From positions 1 to 64,000 of IMG/VR virus record IMGVR_UViG_3300023174_000047: a DNA stretch of 64,000 nucleotides; one strand, 5' to 3'. Source of the DNA: a virus. The notes beneath the pieces were generated by a model, which did not search any database, was not told the origin of the DNA, and saw only the letters and a program-made list of their open reading frames with translations. Below, in pieces: positions 17,749 to 26,894 of this stretch. Each line of letters opens with the position of its first letter. The stretch's first letter is position 1. The translations under genes and the position numbers were made by a program.

Positions 17749-18194
17749 GGGGGTGCACTGGTTTCGATTCAATTAATTGACTCAAATGTGCACGCAGAGG
17801 CAGGCTAGCTAACCTCTATAAAAGCAAGTCAAAACAAAATAAACGCAGAAGACGCACACGTCGAAGCCCTCTTGGCACAAGCAGAATACATCTTCAACAA
17901 TGCTGACGAATTCGTCACCGCAGACGTTGAAGAAATGATGTTTGTCTAAGCAAAAACAATGTTGGATCCCATTAAAGACATTGAGGTAAAGCAATGGGTA
18001 GAGCTGAACGATGCATGCTTTTAAATCAAACATCGGGGTAACTTCAGACCCTTCTCTGAAGTAGGTAGGCTTTAAAACTTAGGTTGATGCGCCGTGCAAA
18101 CCTTTTGCCAATGAAATTGCAAATGCATCTAAGCATGTAGAGCATTTGATGTGACTAATTGAACACTGGGGTTCGACTCCCCACACCTCCACCA
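17749..18194 (+). ncRNA. ssrA: Transfer-messenger RNA (tmRNA)
   Basis: 446 bases. The 5' GGGGGTG pairs with 3' CACCTCC around a G3-U pair (the alanine identity mark), T-arm TGGGG-TTCGACT-CCCCA, encoded CCA. Likely tag frame: resume codon GCA at 17845, 34 codons, stop TAA at 17947-17949. The tag begins AEDAHVEALLAQAEY and ends ADVEEMMFV, so it lacks the usual LAA degron end. One-piece order; a pseudoknot-like GAGG...CCTC follows the 5' arm. Role: rescue of stalled ribosomes, perhaps redirected by the altered tag. Confidence 0.92.
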
Positions 18195-20705: not shown

Positions 20706-20796
20706 GGAAGAATGGCTGAGTCTGGCTTAAGGCGGTGCACTTGAAATGCGCAGAGGTCTAAAGCCTCCGTGAGTTCGAATCTCACTTCTTCCTCCA
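20706..20796 (+). tRNA. tRNA-Ser (TGA)
   Basis: Class II with long variable arm (GAGG...CCTC), anticodon loop CTTGAAA, T-loop TTCGAAT, encoded CCA. Confidence 0.9.
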
Positions 20797-20813
20797 TTCT
20801 CTGCGAGAATAAT

Positions 20814-20888
20814 GGCCACATAGCTCAATGGTAGAGCAGCACATTTGTAATGTGCCGGTTGTTGGTTCAAGTCCGACTGTGGCCTCCA
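20814..20888 (+). tRNA. tRNA-Thr (TGT)
   Basis: 75 bases. D-loop AATGGTA with GG, anticodon loop TTTGTAA, T-loop TTCAAGT, encoded CCA. Fully canonical. Confidence 0.92.
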
Positions 20889-20953
20889 CTTTAATAATAA
20901 TCATATCAATACATTCTCGTGCAGGGCAAAGATATTTTCTATAAATTTCAAAA

Positions 20954-21004
20954 GCGGTAGTAGCTCAATTGACAAGAGCGCCTTCCTTCCAAGTAGAAAA
21001 ATTT
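20954..21004 (+). pseudogene. 5' fragment of a tRNA-Gly-like gene
   Basis: GCGGTAGTAGCTC..GAGC gives an acceptor strand and D-arm, then an anticodon-like loop CTTCCAA (TCC), but no T-arm or matching 3' acceptor follows. The next complete tRNA-Gly begins two bases later. Confidence 0.45.
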
Positions 21005-21005
21005 C

Positions 21006-21079
21006 GCGTCATAAGTGTTATGTCAGCACGCCGGTCTTCCAATCCGGGAGTGTGAGTTAGATTCTCACATGGCGCACCA
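21006..21079 (+). tRNA. tRNA-Gly (TCC), non-canonical D- and T-loops
   Basis: 74 bases. Acceptor GCGTCAT/ATGGCGC pairs fully, anticodon loop CTTCCAA, T-stem GTGAG/CTCAC, encoded CCA. The D-loop lacks GG and the T-loop is TTAGATT (C56 lost). Confidence 0.75.
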
Positions 21080-21087
21080 ATTTCAAA

Positions 21088-21163
21088 CGTCCATTGGTAG
21101 AGTAGTTATTGCACTTGTTTTGGGAACAAGTATTCGTCGGTGCAAGTCCGGCATGGGCGACCA
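21088..21163 (+). tRNA. tRNA-Pro (TGG), reduced D-arm
   Basis: 76 bases. Acceptor CGTCCAT/ATGGGCG, anticodon arm CTTGT-TTTGGGA-ACAAG, T-loop TGCAAGT. The D-arm is hard to form. Encoded CCA. Confidence 0.75.
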
Positions 21164-21169
21164 ATTTAT

Positions 21170-21258
21170 GGAGAGTTAACTAGCCGAGGCGCTAGAGATG
21201 TTTGCTAAACATCATGCACTTCCCTAAGAGGTGTGCGGGGCAGGACCGCAGCTCTCCT
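21170..21258 (+). tRNA. tRNA-Ser (GCT), unusual T-loop, no encoded CCA
   Basis: Acceptor GGAGAGT/GCTCTCC, anticodon arm GATGT-TTGCTAA-ACATC, long variable arm CACTTC...GAGGTG, T-stem TGCGG/CCGCA with loop GGCAGGA. CCA is absent, so it must be added by an enzyme. Confidence 0.75.
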
Positions 21259-21263
21259 CTCTT

Positions 21264-21343
21264 TTGTAGAGCAGCAATGCTAGTGTGTGGCCGAAAGACT
21301 GATGGTGTGGCGTTTCGGGTAAAACCTCGCAACCATCCTACAA
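21264..21343 (+). ncRNA. Unassigned structured RNA between tRNA-Ser and tRNA-Asn
   Basis: TTGTAG (21264-21269) pairs with CTACAA (21338-21343). Inside, AGCA..TGCT and GATGGT/ACCATC (21301-21306/21332-21337) form two arms. It is tRNA-sized but I find no anticodon arm. Confidence 0.4.
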
Positions 21344-21351
21344 TTTTAAAA

Positions 21352-21440
21352 TCCCCCTTAGCTCAGTGGTAGAGCGCTCGGCTGTTAACCGGGAGGCCCT
21401 TATAAGGTACAGCGACGATCGTAACGTCGAGGAAGAGCCA
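21352..21440 (+). tRNA. tRNA-Asn (GTT), extended variable arm
   Basis: 89 bases. TCCCCCT acceptor strand pairs imperfectly (5 of 7) with AGGAAGA. The D-loop has GG; anticodon arm CTCGG-CTGTTAA-CCGGG. The variable region contains CCTTATAAGG, which can fold, and the T-stem CGACG/CGTCG has loop ATCGTAA. Ends GCCA. May be functional or decaying. Confidence 0.55.
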
Positions 21441-21449
21441 ATTTTAAAC

Positions 21450-21533
21450 ACACTAGCAGCAAGTGGCGGTTGCGGGTTCTCTCCAAAAGAACTGTTTTTA
21501 CTAAAGTGGGTTCGATTCCTACCTAGTGTGCCA
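21450..21533 (+). tRNA. tRNA-Trp (CCA), extended variable loop
   Basis: 84 bases. Acceptor ACACTAG/CTAGTGT, anticodon arm GTTCT-CTCCAAA-AGAAC, variable loop of about 12 bases (normal is 4-5), T-loop TTCGATT, discriminator G, encoded CCA. Confidence 0.65.
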
Positions 21534-21539
21534 TAAATA
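21534..21539 (+). promoter_or_regulatory. Late box for the endonuclease gene
   Basis: TAAATA directly after the CCA of tRNA-Trp, five bases before the ATG. Confidence 0.7.
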
Positions 21540-21544
21540 TATAC

Positions 21545-22354
21545 ATGAACGTCATTTATAATGTTGAGCAATACAATCAAAGCAAAAGCATAAACGCTAA
21601 AATAGGTGTATTGTGTCCATGTTGTACCAATTGGTTTGAAACGACTAGACTGCTGTTACAGCGAGCGTTAAAGTCCAGCAGACTAAAATTTTGCTCTATA
21701 GAATGTGCAAATAAATTTCAATCAGAAAAAATACAGCTTGAATGTGTTTTCTGCAAACAACAAATAGAGAGAGTTGCAAGTCAACTTAAAAGAGTGAAAC
21801 ATGCATTTTGTAATCACTCTTGTGCAGCGCAATTTAACAACAGCTTAAGACCCAAAAAGTTAAAACAACTAAAGAAAGCTAAACCTATAGCAATAGTTGT
21901 TGAACACACTTGCATTAATTGTGGAAAAACATCCATTGTTTCTGCTCATGCTAGTCTCAAAAAGAAATTTTGTTCTGGCAGTTGCAGAAACGTAATTAAT
22001 AATAAAACCATAAGAGGTACACGCTCTAAAGTAGAGAAAGAGTTTGAAGTAGCAATCAAAGCAAATTTTCCAGATTTGAAGTTTAATTGCAATGACAGAC
22101 AAATTCTTGATGGTTTAGAGCTTGATTTTTACTTTCCTGAAATTAAAATAGCAATAGAATTTAACGGTATTTGGCATTTAAAACCAATACGTGGAGAAGA
22201 ACTTTTATCAAAATACAAACAAAGAGATGAACACAAAAAACGTTTATGTGAAGAAAAAAATATCAAACTTTTAGTGCTTTGTGATGAAGTTAGTTCCAAC
22301 AAATCAATTGATGAGCAAGTACACAAAGCAATTACGTTTTTAAAACAATTTTAA
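21545..22354 (+). CDS. Putative homing endonuclease with three zinc fingers and a Vsr-like nuclease domain, 269 aa
   Basis: Three CxxC...CxxxC zinc motifs (Cys 24/27/50/54, 67/70/89/93, 123/126/143/147) precede a nuclease-like domain with LELDFYFPE (Asp194), IAIEFNGIWH (Glu205, His211) and KYKQRDEHKKRLCEE. This is the layout of Vsr/EDxHD-type homing enzymes that sit near phage tRNA or intron sites. It is inserted between tRNA-Trp and tRNA-Arg and its stop is two bases before the tRNA-Arg 5' end. A role in shuffling the tRNA cluster is likely but inferred. Confidence 0.75.
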   Translation: MNVIYNVEQYNQSKSINAKIGVLCPCCTNWFETTRLLLQRALKSSRLKFCSIECANKFQSEKIQLECVFCKQQIERVASQLKRVKHAFCNHSCAAQFNNSLRPKKLKQLKKAKPIAIVVEHTCINCGKTSIVSAHASLKKKFCSGSCRNVINNKTIRGTRSKVEKEFEVAIKANFPDLKFNCNDRQILDGLELDFYFPEIKIAIEFNGIWHLKPIRGEELLSKYKQRDEHKKRLCEEKNIKLLVLCDEVSSNKSIDEQVHKAITFLKQF

Positions 22355-22356
22355 AT

Positions 22357-22431
22357 GCCTCGTTAGTGTAATGGACAGCACGTTTCGCTACGGACGAAAA
22401 AGTAGGAGTTCGAATCTTCTATGGGGTACCA
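22357..22431 (+). tRNA. tRNA-Arg (ACG)
   Basis: 75 bases. Anticodon arm TTTCG-CTACGGA-CGAAA, GG in the D-loop, T-loop TTCGAAT. The acceptor has several G-T wobbles; encoded CCA. Confidence 0.85.
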
Positions 22432-22437
22432 TTCAAT

Positions 22438-22514
22438 GCCCGTATAGCCCAATTGGTAGAGGCGTATGACTTAGGATCATAATGTTGAGGGTTCGAATCC
22501 TTCTACGGGCACCA
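22438..22514 (+). tRNA. tRNA-Leu (TAG) with a short variable loop
   Basis: 77 bases. Acceptor GCCCGTA/TACGGGC, anticodon arm TATGA-CTTAGGA-TCATA, T-loop TTCGAAT, discriminator A, encoded CCA. Bacterial tRNA-Leu normally has a long variable arm; here it is about five bases. Confidence 0.8.
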
Positions 22515-22523
22515 ATTTTAAAT

Positions 22524-22598
22524 AGCTCCTTGGTGTAATGGTTAGCACAGAAAGTTTTGAACTTTCTAGTCCAGGTTCGAGTCCTGGGGGAGCTGCCA
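22524..22598 (+). tRNA. tRNA-Gln (TTG)
   Basis: 75 bases. Acceptor AGCTCCT/GGGAGCT, anticodon arm GAAAG-TTTTGAA-CTTTC, canonical D- and T-loops, discriminator G, encoded CCA. Confidence 0.9.
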
Positions 22599-22603
22599 AA
22601 TTT

Positions 22604-22681
22604 AGATTACTCATTAACATAAAAGTAATGTAGCTGCCTTTGAAGTAGCATAAAAGGGAGCATTACCCTCTTGGGCTACCA
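22604..22681 (+). tRNA. tRNA-like gene, anticodon TTG, degenerate
   Basis: D-stem CATTA/TAATG, anticodon arm GCTGC-CTTTGAA-GTAGC, T-stem AGGG/CCCT with loop AGCATTA, encoded CCA. The acceptor pairs at only about five of seven positions. The D-loop lacks GG. A second Gln tRNA, or one that has lost function. Confidence 0.5.
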
Positions 22682-22697
22682 ATTTCCTTTTAACAAA

Positions 22698-22772
22698 GAA
22701 CCTTAAGCTTTAACAGTGAAGCAAGAAGCTTTTAACTTCTAGAAAACGGAGCATTACCGTTAAGGTTCACCA
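22698..22772 (+). tRNA. tRNA-Lys (TTT), non-canonical D- and T-loops
   Basis: 75 bases. Acceptor GAACCTT/AAGGTTC, D-stem GCTT/AAGC, anticodon arm AGAAG-CTTTTAA-CTTCT, T-stem AACGG/CCGTT all pair perfectly. Yet the D-loop TAACAGTG lacks GG and the T-loop is AGCATTA. Encoded CCA. Confidence 0.8.
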
Positions 22773-22824
22773 ATTTAAACAGTTGAACAACAATTATAAG
22801 AGTATATTTTGTTGTGGATAAAAA

Positions 22825-22898
22825 TCCCAGGAACGCACACGGTTGAGCGGGCTGGCTGTTAACCAGTTGAACGTGGTTCAACCCCACGCTTGGGAGCC
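22825..22898 (+). tRNA. tRNA-Asn (GTT), canonical
   Basis: 74 bases. Acceptor TCCCAGG/CTTGGGA, anticodon loop CTGTTAA, T-loop TTCAACC, GG in the D-loop, discriminator G, encoded CCA. Second Asn gene of the cluster. Confidence 0.85.
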
Positions 22899-22941
22899 AA
22901 ATTTCAAAATTGTAAGTAAGTGGTCTAATTTAAATTTTAAA

Positions 22942-23028
22942 CGCGGGGTAGTGTAACGGTTAACACGTCTGGCTCATAACCAGAAAACATTATTGCTTGT
23001 GCTGGTTCGAGTCCAGCTCCCGCAACCA
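22942..23028 (+). tRNA. Initiator tRNA-fMet (CAT)
   Basis: 87 bases. Unpaired C1 opposite A72 (CGCGGGG...CCCGCAACCA) marks an initiator tRNA. Anticodon arm TCTGG-CTCATAA-CCAGA, T-loop TTCGAGT. Oddities: the variable region is about 16 bases and the usual run of three G-C pairs in the anticodon stem is T-G-G. Confidence 0.8.
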
Positions 23029-23035
23029 ATTTCAT

Positions 23036-23197
23036 ATGAATAAAAATAACGAAAGCTGGAATGAACAAAGTAATCATTTGCAAAAGGCACAAGATATAAA
23101 AAATGCTGAGAAATACGGATATAGAGAAGGGTTTATTCCAATTATCTCGCTGGATTTAATTAAAAAAATCATATGTTGGTTCAAGAAGAAAAAATAA
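23036..23197 (+). CDS. Small protein in the tRNA cluster, 53 aa
   Basis: Polar N-terminal half (MNKNNESWNEQSNHLQKAQD) and a basic amphipathic C-terminal helix (LIKKIICWFKKKK) that could touch membrane. Starts eight bases after the initiator tRNA and ends eight before tRNA-Val. No family recognised; could be chance. Confidence 0.4.
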   Translation: MNKNNESWNEQSNHLQKAQDIKNAEKYGYREGFIPIISLDLIKKIICWFKKKK

Positions 23198-23205
23198 TTT
23201 TAAAT

Positions 23206-23281
23206 GCCTGAGTAACTTAGTGACTAAAGTATCTGCCCTACACGCAGACTATCGTGAGTTTGAGTCTCACCTCGGGCACCA
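23206..23281 (+). tRNA. tRNA-Val (TAC), C33 and T-loop change
   Basis: 76 bases. Acceptor GCCTGAG/CTCGGGC, anticodon arm TCTGC-CCTACAC-GCAGA (C instead of T at position 33), T-loop TTTGAGT, D-loop without GG. Encoded CCA. Confidence 0.75.
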
Positions 23282-23285
23282 ATTT

Positions 23286-23425
23286 CAGAACATTCAATCA
23301 ACCGCAATTTTAGAGGTCGCTCTTGCAAGCCATGTACCTCTAACGGCTCTGATAACAGGCGCGCTTGCACGAGCCTTGCGAATGTTCTGCGAGCGCCAGC
23401 GGGCTTTGCTACCCCGTGTGGCGCT
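23286..23425 (+). ncRNA. Structured RNA: three-way junction plus terminal hairpin
   Basis: Outer stem CAGAACATTC (23286-23295) / GAATGTTCTG (23380-23389), ten pairs. Inside: AGAGGT/ACCTCT (23312-23317/23336-23341) and GGCTC/GAGCC (23345-23349/23371-23375). Then AGCGCCA/TGGCGCT hairpin (23392-23398/23419-23425) followed by AAATTTTTAATTTT, which could terminate. GC-rich for this genome. No tRNA features or convincing frame. Confidence 0.6.
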
Positions 23426-23449
23426 AAATTTTTAATTTTCAAATAGACG

Positions 23450-23477
23450 TTGATAAAGGTTAAAAATAATTTATATT
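23450..23477 (+). promoter_or_regulatory. Early-type promoter of the 23484 gene
   Basis: TTGATA at 23450-23455, 16-base spacer, TATATT at 23472-23477. The predicted first base is the A of the ATG. Confidence 0.75.
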
Positions 23478-23483
23478 AAATGT

Positions 23484-23756
23484 ATGATTACAATGTTTAA
23501 AACATTTAGAGGCACAAAAGAAGAATTAATAAATCACTTCAACAGTTTTGTATCTTTTGATAAGGACAAAAAGAATTCTAATTCATATTATGAATTAGAT
23601 GATGCACCAATTGCAAAGCAGATTGAAGAAGCAGATGTCAGCAACAAATTCAAAAATGGCGAAAGTAATGATTCATTTGGATTAATATTCCTCCTTTATA
23701 GAAATGAGACATCACTATCTGTGATAAGATCTTATATACATATTGTAGACAAATAA
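23484..23756 (+). CDS. Small acidic protein, 90 aa, unknown
   Basis: MITMFKTFRGTKEELINHFN start, Asp/Glu/Lys/Asn-rich centre, hydrophobic beta end (FGLIFLLYR, VIRSYIHIV). Fully leaderless by promoter position. An early-type gene inside the late tRNA cluster. No family recognised. Confidence 0.55.
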   Translation: MITMFKTFRGTKEELINHFNSFVSFDKDKKNSNSYYELDDAPIAKQIEEADVSNKFKNGESNDSFGLIFLLYRNETSLSVIRSYIHIVDK

Positions 23757-23784
23757 ATTTTGCAGCATATATCTCTACACAAAT

Positions 23785-23872
23785 GGACATAGAGCGAGCT
23801 AGTGAACGCAGTGGTCTGCAAAACCACGTGGATTAAATTCCTACGCAGAGTGCGATACTCTGTATGTCCTCC
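23785..23872 (+). tRNA. tRNA-Cys (GCA), extended variable arm
   Basis: 88 bases. Acceptor GGACATA/TATGTCC, anticodon arm GTGGT-CTGCAAA-ACCAC, T-stem CAGAG/CTCTG with loop TGCGATA, D-loop without GG, encoded CCA. The variable region GTGGATTAAATTCCTACG is far longer than the normal five bases. Confidence 0.75.
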
Positions 23873-23902
23873 AATTCTAGTACGCGTGCGTCCCCAGCGC
23901 TT

Positions 23903-23968
23903 GGCCCGTCGCTGGTTAATCCTAGGCATCTGAGATTCCAAATTTCAGGTGAAGTTAACGGGCCGCCA
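23903..23968 (+). tRNA. Armless tRNA-like gene, anticodon CCA
   Basis: 66 bases. Acceptor GGCCCGT/ACGGGCC pairs perfectly, discriminator G and encoded CCA. Anticodon loop TTCCAAA sits on a nine-pair stem (CATCTGAGA/TTTCAGGTG). Only a weak D-arm and no T-arm. An alternative hairpin (CCAGCG/CGCTGG) competes, so this may be a remnant. Confidence 0.4.
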
Positions 23969-23978
23969 ATTTTATTAG

Positions 23979-24007
23979 TTGATTTTAAATAGGAAACATA
24001 TTATAAT
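23979..24007 (+). promoter_or_regulatory. Promoter of tRNA-Arg(TCT)
   Basis: TTGATT at 23979-23984, 17-base spacer, TATAAT at 24002-24007. Confidence 0.75.
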
Positions 24008-24027
24008 AGTTTTGCTAAACAACAAAT

Positions 24028-24102
24028 GCCTGGTTTGTCCTAATGGATAGGACAGGCTCTTCTAAAGCTTCAATAGGGATTCGATTTCCTCACCAGGTAC
24101 CA
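24028..24102 (+). tRNA. tRNA-Arg (TCT), second copy
   Basis: 75 bases. Acceptor GCCTGGT/ACCAGGT, anticodon loop CTTCTAA, T-loop TTCGATT, GG in the D-loop, encoded CCA. Has its own early-type promoter. Confidence 0.85.
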
Positions 24103-24111
24103 TTTTTAAAA

Positions 24112-24186
24112 TCCTCTCGTCGTACGAAAGTCATCACCCTCAGTTGTGATCTGAGAAAAGACGGAGCGTTACCGTCTAGAAAAATC
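24112..24186 (+). tRNA. tRNA-His-like gene (GTG), incomplete
   Basis: Anticodon arm CTCAG-TTGTGAT-CTGAG and T-stem GACGG/CCGTC with loop AGCGTTA are clear. No good acceptor, D-arm or CCA is found. Boundaries approximate. Confidence 0.35.
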
Positions 24187-25278: not shown

Positions 25279-25608
25279 ATGAGCGATCATAAAAATTTAA
25301 TTAATGAATTTTTAAGCGGCGGGTGGATTATCCTCATTGTCGGTGCTTCGGGCATGGGAGCAAGAATACTTTGCAGTGGAATAAGACATTCAGCTTATGA
25401 AATTTTTAAAAGAATACTTGCTGCATCTCTTTGCTCTGGCATTGCATGGTTTGTGCTTGAACAGACTGAACTTGCTAGCTTAACCAAAGCCATTGTATAT
25501 GGCGTGGTGGGTGTAGTTAGCCCAGAACTCATTAATGGTTTAATAAAAATTGCTGCTAGATTTGCTAAAAATCCGATAAAGTTCTTTGACGATAATAAGA
25601 GCAATTGA
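25279..25608 (+). CDS. Putative holin, 109 aa
   Basis: Three hydrophobic segments (about 13-31 GGWIILIVGASGMGARIL, 46-62 RILAASLCSGIAWFVL, 71-92 AIVYGVVGVVSPELINGLI) with a charged end FAKNPIKFFDD. This G.SG...R....R...A..CSG pattern resembles the LydA-like phage holin family. It would form membrane lesions for lysis. TAAATA six bases before the ATG marks it as late. No endolysin is seen next to it. Confidence 0.65.
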   Translation: MSDHKNLINEFLSGGWIILIVGASGMGARILCSGIRHSAYEIFKRILAASLCSGIAWFVLEQTELASLTKAIVYGVVGVVSPELINGLIKIAARFAKNPIKFFDDNKSN

Positions 25609-25637
25609 AATGTAATATACACTGGTTAAATACACAT

Positions 25638-26894
25638 ATGAACCGCAGAGAATTTATTCGAGTAGGTGCTGCAGCAGGTGCATCACTTCCCACTCTACTC
25701 AAAGCGCAATCTGCAAATGCAGCAAAAGCTACATCTGTAATTCAAATTTTCCTACCTGGCGGCATTGCACATCAGGATGCATGGGACTATAAACCCAATG
25801 GATCGTCTGATTACAGGGGACCTTTTGGAGGTATTAAGACTAAAATTGATGGAGTTTATTTTGGCTCTTTGCTGCAAAATACGGCAAATATTAGCAATGA
25901 ATTGACAGTCATAAGATCCATGACACATGGTGAAGCTGCTCATGAGCGCGGGGTGCATAATATGCTCACAGGCTACAAGCCATCTCCAGCATTATCTTAC
26001 CCTTCTTTTGGAAGCGTTATTAATCATGAGCTCGGCAGTAGAAACAATTTACCCGCGTATGTGCTCGTACCAAATCAATTTGCTCCCGAGAATGGCACTG
26101 GTTACTTATCAACCCGTTTCGGACCATTTGCACTAGGTTCAAATCCAGAGGATCCATCGTTTGTAGTCAGGGATCTAAAACTGCCCTCTGGTGTGACAAA
26201 TGAGATGTTTGAGCGACGCAAAAAAATGCTCGGCATTGTAGATGATTATTTTAAAACAAGAGAATCACGTGCTGATGCAATTAAAGCATCTGATTCGTTT
26301 TATAATGATGCTTATAATATGATTTCTTCTACCCAGGCTCGTGAAGCATTTGAGATATCAAAAGAAACAGATTCAGTAAGAGAGACATATGGAAAAAATG
26401 CTGCTGGTCAGCGATTGCTGCTTGCACGTAGATTGGTTGAAGCAGGTGTTCGAATGGTCACTGTAACATATGGTAGCTGGGATCATCATAGTAACATCAA
26501 GAGTGCATTTGAGCAAAATATGGTTAGTTTTGATAAAGCCTTTGCTGCACTTATTGCAGACTTAAGGCAACGCGGATTGCTTGATTCTACATTAGTCTTA
26601 GTTACATCTGAATTTGGACGCACACCTAAAATCAATCAAACCAATGGCCGCGATCATTGGCCTCGTGTATTCTCTTCTGTACTTGCTGGGGGCGGAACCA
26701 AGGCAGGATTTGCATATGGAACCAGTGATGCATTAGCATCGGAACCAGATACAGATCCAGTTACCCCCGGTCAGTTAGCTGCTACAATGTACCATCTCAT
26801 GGGCATTAATCCTAGAAAGACCCTCATGACACCTGATTTGCGCCCTGTAGAAATTGTCTATGAAGCTCAGCCTATTGAGCAAATCATTGTTTAA
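25638..26894 (+). CDS. DUF1501 protein with Tat signal, 418 aa
   Basis: Twin-arginine start MNRREFIRVGAAAGASLPTL and a cleavage region near AQSANAA (about 24-29), then the DUF1501 core (QIFLPGGIAHQDAWDYKP, HGEAAHERGVHNMLTGY, TSEFGRTPKINQTNGRDHWP, MYHLMGINPR). The fold is related to sulfatases and alkaline phosphatases; the true substrate is unknown. The family is abundant in Planctomycetes and related bacteria and odd in a phage. Full length for the family. TAAATA five bases before the ATG: a late gene between holin and structural genes. Confidence 0.85.
   Translation: MNRREFIRVGAAAGASLPTLLKAQSANAAKATSVIQIFLPGGIAHQDAWDYKPNGSSDYRGPFGGIKTKIDGVYFGSLLQNTANISNELTVIRSMTHGEAAHERGVHNMLTGYKPSPALSYPSFGSVINHELGSRNNLPAYVLVPNQFAPENGTGYLSTRFGPFALGSNPEDPSFVVRDLKLPSGVTNEMFERRKKMLGIVDDYFKTRESRADAIKASDSFYNDAYNMISSTQAREAFEISKETDSVRETYGKNAAGQRLLLARRLVEAGVRMVTVTYGSWDHHSNIKSAFEQNMVSFDKAFAALIADLRQRGLLDSTLVLVTSEFGRTPKINQTNGRDHWPRVFSSVLAGGGTKAGFAYGTSDALASEPDTDPVTPGQLAATMYHLMGINPRKTLMTPDLRPVEIVYEAQPIEQIIV

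Follow-up and report, generated by a model that had tools for sequence, protein, structure and literature searches.

The window analysed here is the first 64 kb of IMGVR_UViG_3300023174_000047, a 203,774-base phage record carrying T4-like portal, head, tail and helicase genes, and its subject is an array of transfer RNA (tRNA) genes between 20.7 and 24.1 kb. In an ordinary tRNA, G18 of the D-loop is inserted into the T-loop opposite U55 (pseudouridine 55, Psi55) and G19 pairs with C56. In the window's Lys, Pro, Cys, Gly and Val tRNAs, the combination of G18G19 with U54U55C56 is absent, and 19-56 is kept as a Watson-Crick pair. We conclude that, most probably, these tRNAs work and compensatory exchanges have rewired their elbow with both contacts kept, and we put the probability of this reading at about 0.85.

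When sequences are compared, the cloverleaves are intact, positions 18-55, 19-56 and 54-58 covary, and double changes recur between orthologues. The discriminator bases are kept, and the exchange recurs in unrelated phages and in cellular tRNA-His. From these patterns we infer the geometry of A18-G55, the charging of the tRNAs and their use by the ribosome.

Re-paired elbows in intact cloverleaves

Because ARAGORN and Rfam use loop letters, we wrote a structure-only cloverleaf finder that scores stem pairing and spacing and ignores the letters of the loops. Lys, Pro, Cys, Gly and Val all emerge from it as intact cloverleaves, with acceptor, anticodon and T stems of 7, 5 and 5 bp and a D-arm; CCA is encoded in all five. 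On shuffled sequence the finder returned 2 matches in 1.29 Mb and, in a second control, 0 in 4.2 Mb, which excludes chance as the source of the recovered cloverleaves. Once the loops are aligned, Lys, Pro and Cys place A18G19 opposite G55C56 (swapped tRNAs), Gly places G18U19 opposite U55A56, and Val places G18A19 opposite U55U56 (re-paired tRNAs).

ARAGORN and Rfam detect only part of the array: ARAGORN fails on Lys, Val, Cys and the Asn at 22825, and Rfam, at its gathering threshold, fails on Lys and Cys. ARAGORN recovers 97% of tRNAs with UC at 55-56, 37% of those with GC and 5% of the members with G54-G58. Phage tRNA sets are probably under-annotated, since gene finders miss many swapped tRNAs.

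The original prediction, made from the window's letters, had listed noncanonical loops in Lys, Gly, Cys, Val, Pro and an element at 22604, canonical GG and TTC in Thr, Leu, Gln, Arg(ACG), Arg(TCT), Asn 22825, Trp and fMet, and odd T-loops in a His-like element (AGCGTTA), Ser(GCT) and Asn 21352; all of these are present as read. The T-loop is GGCAGGA in Ser(GCT) and ATCGTAA in Asn 21352, which keeps GG and T55-C56 and departs from the canonical form at A54/U58 alone. Its statement that the stems pair well holds for the five cloverleaves and fails for the 22604 element, whose acceptor stem is weak and which forms no cloverleaf. It had also described a paired loss of GG and TTC. The changes are indeed paired, but the loops covary, so that the change is a matched replacement rather than a loss, and the supposed loss of TTC merges three separate changes, at 54-58, 18-55 and 19-56.

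Covariation at three elbow contacts

Covariation was assessed in two samples. The unselected set comprises 99 unique tRNAs from relatives identified by the portal gene and the DUF1501 gene (25605-26894), with no tRNA feature in their selection. The pooled sample of 1,783 tRNAs adds to these relatives IMG/VR loci picked by two T-arm patterns, GGAGC[A/G]TTACC then CCA, with the D-loop unconstrained, and named-phage loci; among the IMG/VR matches listed and three named-phage loci, the finder identified 1,741 tRNAs in 238 loci.

In the unselected set, the bases at 55-56 predict those at 18-19 throughout: UC goes with GG in 64/64 tRNAs and GC with AG in 32/32 (with GG in 0/32), and the rarer UU and UA go with GA (2/2) and GT (1/1). 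The original prediction had named random rather than paired change in related phages as the outcome that would count against it, and in these relatives the pairing holds. In the pooled sample, the predicted 18-19 stands in register for UC in 1277/1299 tRNAs, GC in 371/382, UU in 53/54, CC in 10/11, UA in 8/8, UG in 7/7, GG in 4/4 and GA in 3/3. Altogether, 456/472 tRNAs with a 55-56 other than UC carry the predicted bases, compared with 332 on average and at most 349 over 2000 permutations. With both UC and GC left out, 85/90 fit the pairing rule (permutation mean 39.6, maximum 53). For a blind test, the register was set from canonical tRNAs alone and one tRNA was taken per 80% cluster; A18 then occurs in 259/340 G55 tRNAs versus 33/1114 others (p about 1e-172), and 19-56 is Watson-Crick in 59/77 tRNAs whose base 56 is not C (mean 34.7, maximum 46).

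Bases 19 and 56 thus form Watson-Crick matches of every type, G-C, A-U, U-A and C-G. Position 18-55 has two states, G18 with U55 and A18 with G55; a few G55 tRNAs carry C18, a Watson-Crick alternative (e.g. L322:908). The 54-58 pair switches as a unit, being U-A in 1391, A-U in 236 and G-G in 75 of the pooled tRNAs. Among the 389 tRNAs with G55, its letters are A-U in 169, U-A in 121, G-G in 66 and C-A in 24, and R57 is present in every one.

In the elbow that we propose, base 19 would complement base 56 in any of the four ways, 18-55 would alternate between G18-U55, the U-turn form, and A18-G55, and the third pair, 54-58, which closes the T-loop, would switch too (U-A, A-U or G-G); the L-shape would thereby be maintained. 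In the A18-G55 state the T-loop would read N-G-N-R-(A/U/G), close to the UGNRA type of T-loop, and A18 would join G55 from outside to form a composite GNRA-like turn. In the UGNRA T-loop-like motif, the G commonly meets an outside A, forming a composite GNRA loop (PMC2258182). Because U54-G55-C56-R57-A58 together with A18 matches this motif in letters and roles, with R57 in 389/389 G55 tRNAs and A18 in 371/382 of the GC class, the swapped elbow would appear to use this second T-loop solution while its 19-56 pair stays Watson-Crick.

Several observations weigh against a rewired, working elbow. In the pooled sample, the predicted 18-19 is absent where 55-56 is GT (0/2) or CA (0/1), and 16/472 noncanonical tRNAs violate the rule in register. 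Outside it, two GA T-loops at L395:3134 and L398:6101 (minus strand) carry the D-loop bases AC. For some tRNAs the D-loop register leaves an uncertainty of one or two positions. The IMG/VR loci were chosen by T-loop, so the pooled sample says nothing on prevalence, and kinship inflates its raw counts, yet the GC class spans 338 separate 80% clusters. Within the window, two elements (22604 and 24104) have the look of decay, and base 33 of Val 23206 is C instead of U.

Two of these observations can be extended. Misfit D-loops (AC or CTTTA) facing GA or GG at 55-56 are found at L395:3134, L398:6101 and L395:2968 (minus-strand positions) and at L476:1002, and they possibly form a further elbow class. 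The near-identical relative of Val 23206 at L119:2686 has U33; in the pooled sample C33 occurs in 29/389 swapped and 30/1302 canonical tRNAs.

Double switches between orthologues

Clusters of mixed class contain clean double switches at paired elbow positions. Val (L276:495 versus L327:2493) and Ile (L328 and L334 versus L347) combine G18A with U55G in an A54-U58 background, Asn (L120:6079 versus L333:12454) combines G19A with C56U, and in Cys (L293 versus L305) A19-U56 is exchanged for C19-G56. In relatives, the conservation of swapped tRNAs is accompanied by compensatory stem changes. Swapped tRNAs are nearer to canonical tRNAs of the same isotype than to swapped tRNAs of other isotypes by 352 to 46, a similarity to which shared identity elements contribute. 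Because they most resemble canonical tRNAs of their own isotype, many separate conversions are indicated, and the elbow swap probably arose many times.

Signs of function

The swapped (G55) class of the pooled sample represents all 20 amino acids, and its discriminator bases fit: U73 in 25/25 Cys, G73 in 14/14 Asp, 9/9 Trp and 16/17 Asn, and C73 in 19/23 His tRNAs. Stem mismatches average 0.39 per swapped and 0.32 per canonical tRNA. The swapped form is depleted in Ser (1/74), Arg (7/117) and Leu (17/157), and the identity of Escherichia coli tRNA-Leu has been reported to depend on G18:U55, G19-C56 and U54:A58 (PMC9976931). Such a depletion, together with the fitting discriminators, is the pattern expected if charging is needed; we think it probable that host synthetases charge the swapped tRNAs and that phage translation uses them. 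The original view that these tRNAs are real rather than decayed is borne out by intact cloverleaves, stem quality near the canonical and kept discriminators.

Occurrence in other phages and in cells

Swapped tRNAs are present in the closest relatives (G000, G001, G002, G003 and G005), and every tRNA found in a more distant portal relative (G006) is GG/TTC. On a 12.9-kb contig (L009/L119), the portal is 100% identical to the window's over the available part and the tRNA set differs: its array holds Ile, a swapped Pro with AGCGTTA, and a gene resembling Arg(ACG) whose D-arm is very short (L009:188-267). A near-identical phage with a different tRNA set therefore points to fast tRNA turnover.

Among named phages that are in culture, the Pelagibacter phages HTVC008M (L383:3001-3074) and Mosig (L384:3001-3074) each have one swapped tRNA-Gly(ACC), which is unannotated in HTVC008M and overlain in Mosig by the annotated hypothetical gene Mosig_000011. 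An annotation gap of Pseudomonas phage ventosus contains a swapped Pro-like tRNA, and the same phage has an Ala tRNA with A19-U56; Vibrio phage phi 3 has an Arg tRNA with U19-A56. Some arrays are near-wholly swapped (24/25 in L218, 20/21 in L170), and all 32 tRNAs are swapped in an array inserted in a complete 5.96-Mb bacterial chromosome (G399) with about 42 dispersed tRNAs. The neighbours of this chromosomal array are genes for an HNH protein, a sigma factor, slipin, two RlaP RNA-repair proteins, NAD synthase and NAPRTase. A related array in G443 lies with LysR, HNH and sigma factor genes, and NAD synthase and NAPRTase genes stand beside another swapped array (L398).

A cellular example came from scanning GTDB contigs for a pattern. 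In the complete chromosome of Candidatus Daviesbacteria (CP066688, G012), the single tRNA-His found by two queries is A18G19/AGCGTTA, and tRNA-Arg(CCT) is AG/TGC. Because the structure-only finder found no tRNA-Asn in this chromosome, an unusual or intron-bearing second His gene may remain there. The sole tRNA-His found is swapped, and the swapped form therefore probably works in cells. Other genomes of the same class have a canonical tRNA-His orthologue, and G097, G229 and G145 have both forms; the distribution suggests that in Microgenomates a swapped copy was gained and the old copy then lost. Across the Microgenomates relatives (L424-L453), tRNA-His is swapped in some and canonical in others. 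The proposal that swapped tRNAs are standard in Verrucomicrobia hosts was rejected, the T-arm pattern giving 14 matches versus 8 for the reversed control in 195 genomes.

Why the elbow was switched, and alternative readings

As to the cause, we would guess that switching costs little where the elbow goes unread by synthetases, and that escape from host modification enzymes or nucleases that read U54-U55 or G18 drives it further in certain elements. Near-neutral switching agrees with the mixed arrays, and wholly swapped arrays suggest directed change in some elements.

It is possible, though we think it doubtful, that the swap is an adaptive escape, a claim about its cause that would be added to the rewired elbow: host nucleases, or the enzymes that act on T54, pseudouridine 55 and Gm18, would read U54-U55 and G18, and swapped tRNAs would go unseen. 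The AGC form removes both target uridines, the swap is total or nearly so in the chromosomal array and in L218 and L170, and the resemblance within isotypes speaks for many conversions in the same direction, although it may partly mirror shared identity elements. However, mixed arrays such as the window's stay mostly canonical, so that evasion would be only partial, and in Microgenomates a cellular tRNA-His is swapped as well. We could link the swapped arrays to no nuclease or modification gene, and the RlaP and slipin genes of the chromosomal array were not found beside its nearest relative. A link to RNA repair (RlaP, slipin and NAD-synthesis genes flank that array) was dropped, the nearest array sharing only LysR, HNH, sigma factor and one unknown gene. 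Less likely still, swapped elbows could self-label a parallel tRNA set: viruses and inserted elements would convert whole complements, as in the 24/25, 20/21 and 32/32 arrays, such that elbow-reading factors of host or element (tRNA nucleases, modification or quality-control enzymes) would destroy or alter host tRNAs and spare the element's own.

The remaining alternatives deny that these are working tRNAs with both contacts kept, and we regard each as very improbable. In the first, the contact between the D- and T-loops is truly lost and the tRNAs, mitochondria-like, are held by other interactions. GG and TTC are both absent in the five window tRNAs, as they are in mitochondrial type II tRNAs (PMC7609411), but the two loops covary instead of drifting freely, R57 is invariant in the G55 class, and orthologues alter both partners together. 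In the second, these are decaying pseudogenes of a fast-changing phage array. Acceptor stems are indeed broken at 22604 and 24104, and Val has its C33; against decay, the stems of Lys are perfect, the mismatch rate is close to the canonical one, discriminators match anticodons, relatives conserve the tRNAs with compensatory stem changes, and the array offers no second, canonical tRNA for Lys, Pro, Cys, Val or Gly beside the swapped and re-paired ones. In the third, they are decoys or dedicated non-translational tRNAs, comparable to the tRNA-Gly that staphylococci use in cell-wall synthesis and that is excluded from EF-Tu. In its favour, altered T arms also mark non-proteinogenic tRNAs, which have lost EF-Tu elements (PMC9976931), but here 20 amino acids are covered, the tRNAs are built in the usual way apart from the elbow, and one complete bacterial chromosome yielded no tRNA-His other than a swapped one.

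Features of the array

Coordinates are collected in Table 1. Ser(GCT) folds as a full cloverleaf at minimum energy and lacks an encoded CCA. We take the elements at 22604 and 24104 for probable relics, because their acceptor stems fail and neither folds as a cloverleaf; the swapped Gln orthologues of the former are intact in two relatives (L120:4965 and L124:2145). An identical copy of tRNA-Lys(TTT) is present in the relative L119/L009, and tRNA-Cys, with U73 kept, has orthologues in L123 and L124. The D-loops of the window's swapped tRNAs are mostly 7-9 nt, their variable loops are 4-5 nt (longer in Cys), and their anticodon stems are 5 bp.

Table 1. Positions of the elements of the window's tRNA array and of the wholly swapped chromosomal array
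Feature	Position	Strand	Elbow or other character	Support
tRNA-Ser(TGA)	20706-20796	+	GG/TTC, canonical	ARAGORN, Rfam, structure-only finder
tRNA-Thr(TGT)	20814-20888	+	GG/TTC, canonical	ARAGORN, Rfam, structure-only finder
tRNA-Gly(TCC)	21006-21079	+	Re-paired: G18-U55 kept, U19-A56; D-loop GT, T-loop TTAGATT	ARAGORN, Rfam, finder, covariation
tRNA-Pro(TGG)	21088-21163	+	Swapped: A18-G55, G19-C56; AG/TGCAAGT	ARAGORN, finder, covariation
tRNA-Ser(GCT)	~21170-21258	+	Swapped, G54-G58; D-loop AG, T-loop GGCAGGA	Minimum-energy fold; loops by eye
tRNA-Asn(GTT)	21352-21440	+	GG and T55-C56 kept; 54-58 reversed to A-U (ATCGTAA)	ARAGORN, Rfam, finder
tRNA-Trp(CCA)	21450-21533	+	Canonical	ARAGORN; GG/TTC by eye; weak tRNA-clan match
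HNH/homing endonuclease gene	21545-22354	+	Within the tRNA array	PHROG phrog_559, E=2.9e-21
tRNA-Arg(ACG)	22357-22431	+	Canonical	ARAGORN, Rfam, finder
tRNA-Leu(TAG)	22438-22514	+	Canonical	ARAGORN, Rfam, finder
tRNA-Gln(TTG)	22524-22598	+	Canonical	ARAGORN, Rfam, finder
Gln-like element, probable relic	22604-22681	+	Swapped loops: D-loop AAAAG, T-loop AGCATTA; acceptor stem mismatched	20.1-bit match; fold; relatives
tRNA-Lys(TTT)	22698-22772	+	Swapped: A18-G55, G19-C56, A54-U58; AG/AGCATTA; every stem perfect	Finder, covariation
tRNA-Asn(GTT)	22825-22899	+	Canonical	Structure-only finder
tRNA-Met(CAT) (fMet)	22942-23028	+	GG/TTC; long variable region	ARAGORN, Rfam, finder
tRNA-Val(TAC)	23206-23281	+	Re-paired: G18-U55 kept, A19-U56; GA/TTTGAGT; C33 replaces U33	Rfam, finder, covariation
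tRNA-Cys(GCA)	23785-23873	+	Swapped: A18-G55, G19-C56; AG/TGCGATA; long variable region	Finder, covariation
tRNA-Arg(TCT)	24028-24102	+	Canonical	ARAGORN, finder
His-like element, probable relic	24104-24186	+	GTG anticodon arm, T-loop AGCGTTA; without CCA or good acceptor stem	Fold: anticodon and T arms only
32-tRNA all-swapped array	G399:C1:1305042-1308640 (L469/L470)		All swapped	

A transfer-messenger RNA gene with a canonical T-loop (17749-18194, + strand; Rfam RF00023, 105 bits) lies about 2.5 kb upstream of the array. The DUF1501 gene (+ strand; Pfam PF07394, E=1.3e-109) adjoins the array, is 57-99% identical across related contigs, and may hint at the host. Between 21163 and 23281, an AATTT-like linker stands directly 3' of CCA in many of the tRNA genes, perhaps a processing or recombination signal. 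A BLAST search of the whole cluster against named phages gave generic tRNA matches only, and a search for relatives of the 399-aa gene upstream of the cluster found none.

Comparison with known systems

The bases of the canonical elbow (G18-Psi55, G19-C56, T54-A58) have been described as invariant (PMC6337575) and as hallmarks of tRNA (PMC7912444). The phage tRNAs have in common with canonical ones the cloverleaf, the 7-nt T-loop, R57, the anticodon arms, identity bases and CCA, and both kinds sit in the T4-like phage array. They differ in that 18-55, 19-56 and/or 54-58 are replaced by other matched pairs. With the UGNRA T-loop, or lonepair triloop R1, of the thiamine pyrophosphate riboswitch and other RNAs (PMC2258182), they share the loop G and the N-R-A; there the closing pair is trans Watson-Crick/Hoogsteen. 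In the phage tRNAs the part of the outside A would fall to position 18, beside a 19-56 Watson-Crick pair that is kept.

Animal mitochondrial type II tRNAs likewise lack the D-loop GG and the T-loop TTC, but they drop the contact between the loops (PMC7609411), whereas here the loops covary; the mitochondria-like character originally proposed does not fit an elbow rebuilt with other bases. tRNA-Pyl is likewise natural, without G18G19 and TPsiC, and has an unusual contact between the D- and T-loops (PMC7609411, PMC6337575); it differs by its 5-nt D-loop, short (3-nt) variable loop and anticodon stem of 6 bp, where the phage tRNAs have ordinary dimensions. In eukaryotes, tRNA-Ala with A54/A58 and R15/A48 is likewise a natural variation of a conserved T-loop tertiary pair (Westhof 2020, PMC7566577), but only 54/58 and 15/48 vary in it, with 18-55 and 19-56 unchanged, and these variants are stated not to be seen in bacteria or archaea (PMC7566577).

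In the open-licence literature, with subscription papers outside the search, we found no report of elbow covariation in phages or bacteria. Steinberg and co-workers reportedly selected suppressor tRNAs with altered D- and T-loops, which would bear on chemical feasibility and not on natural occurrence. The phage arrays indicate that natural tRNAs can have a rewired elbow, for which evolution uses more than one solution, and they would offer natural scaffolds for tRNAs that escape elbow-reading enzymes. They open the question of whether T54, Psi55 and Gm18 modification, the leucyl- and seryl-tRNA synthetases, RNase P and tRNA-targeting immunity need the bases of the elbow or its shape. In ordinary tRNAs, G18, G19, U55 and C56 are treated as invariant, which makes the pairing untestable by comparative sequence, and these arrays supply the missing covariation.

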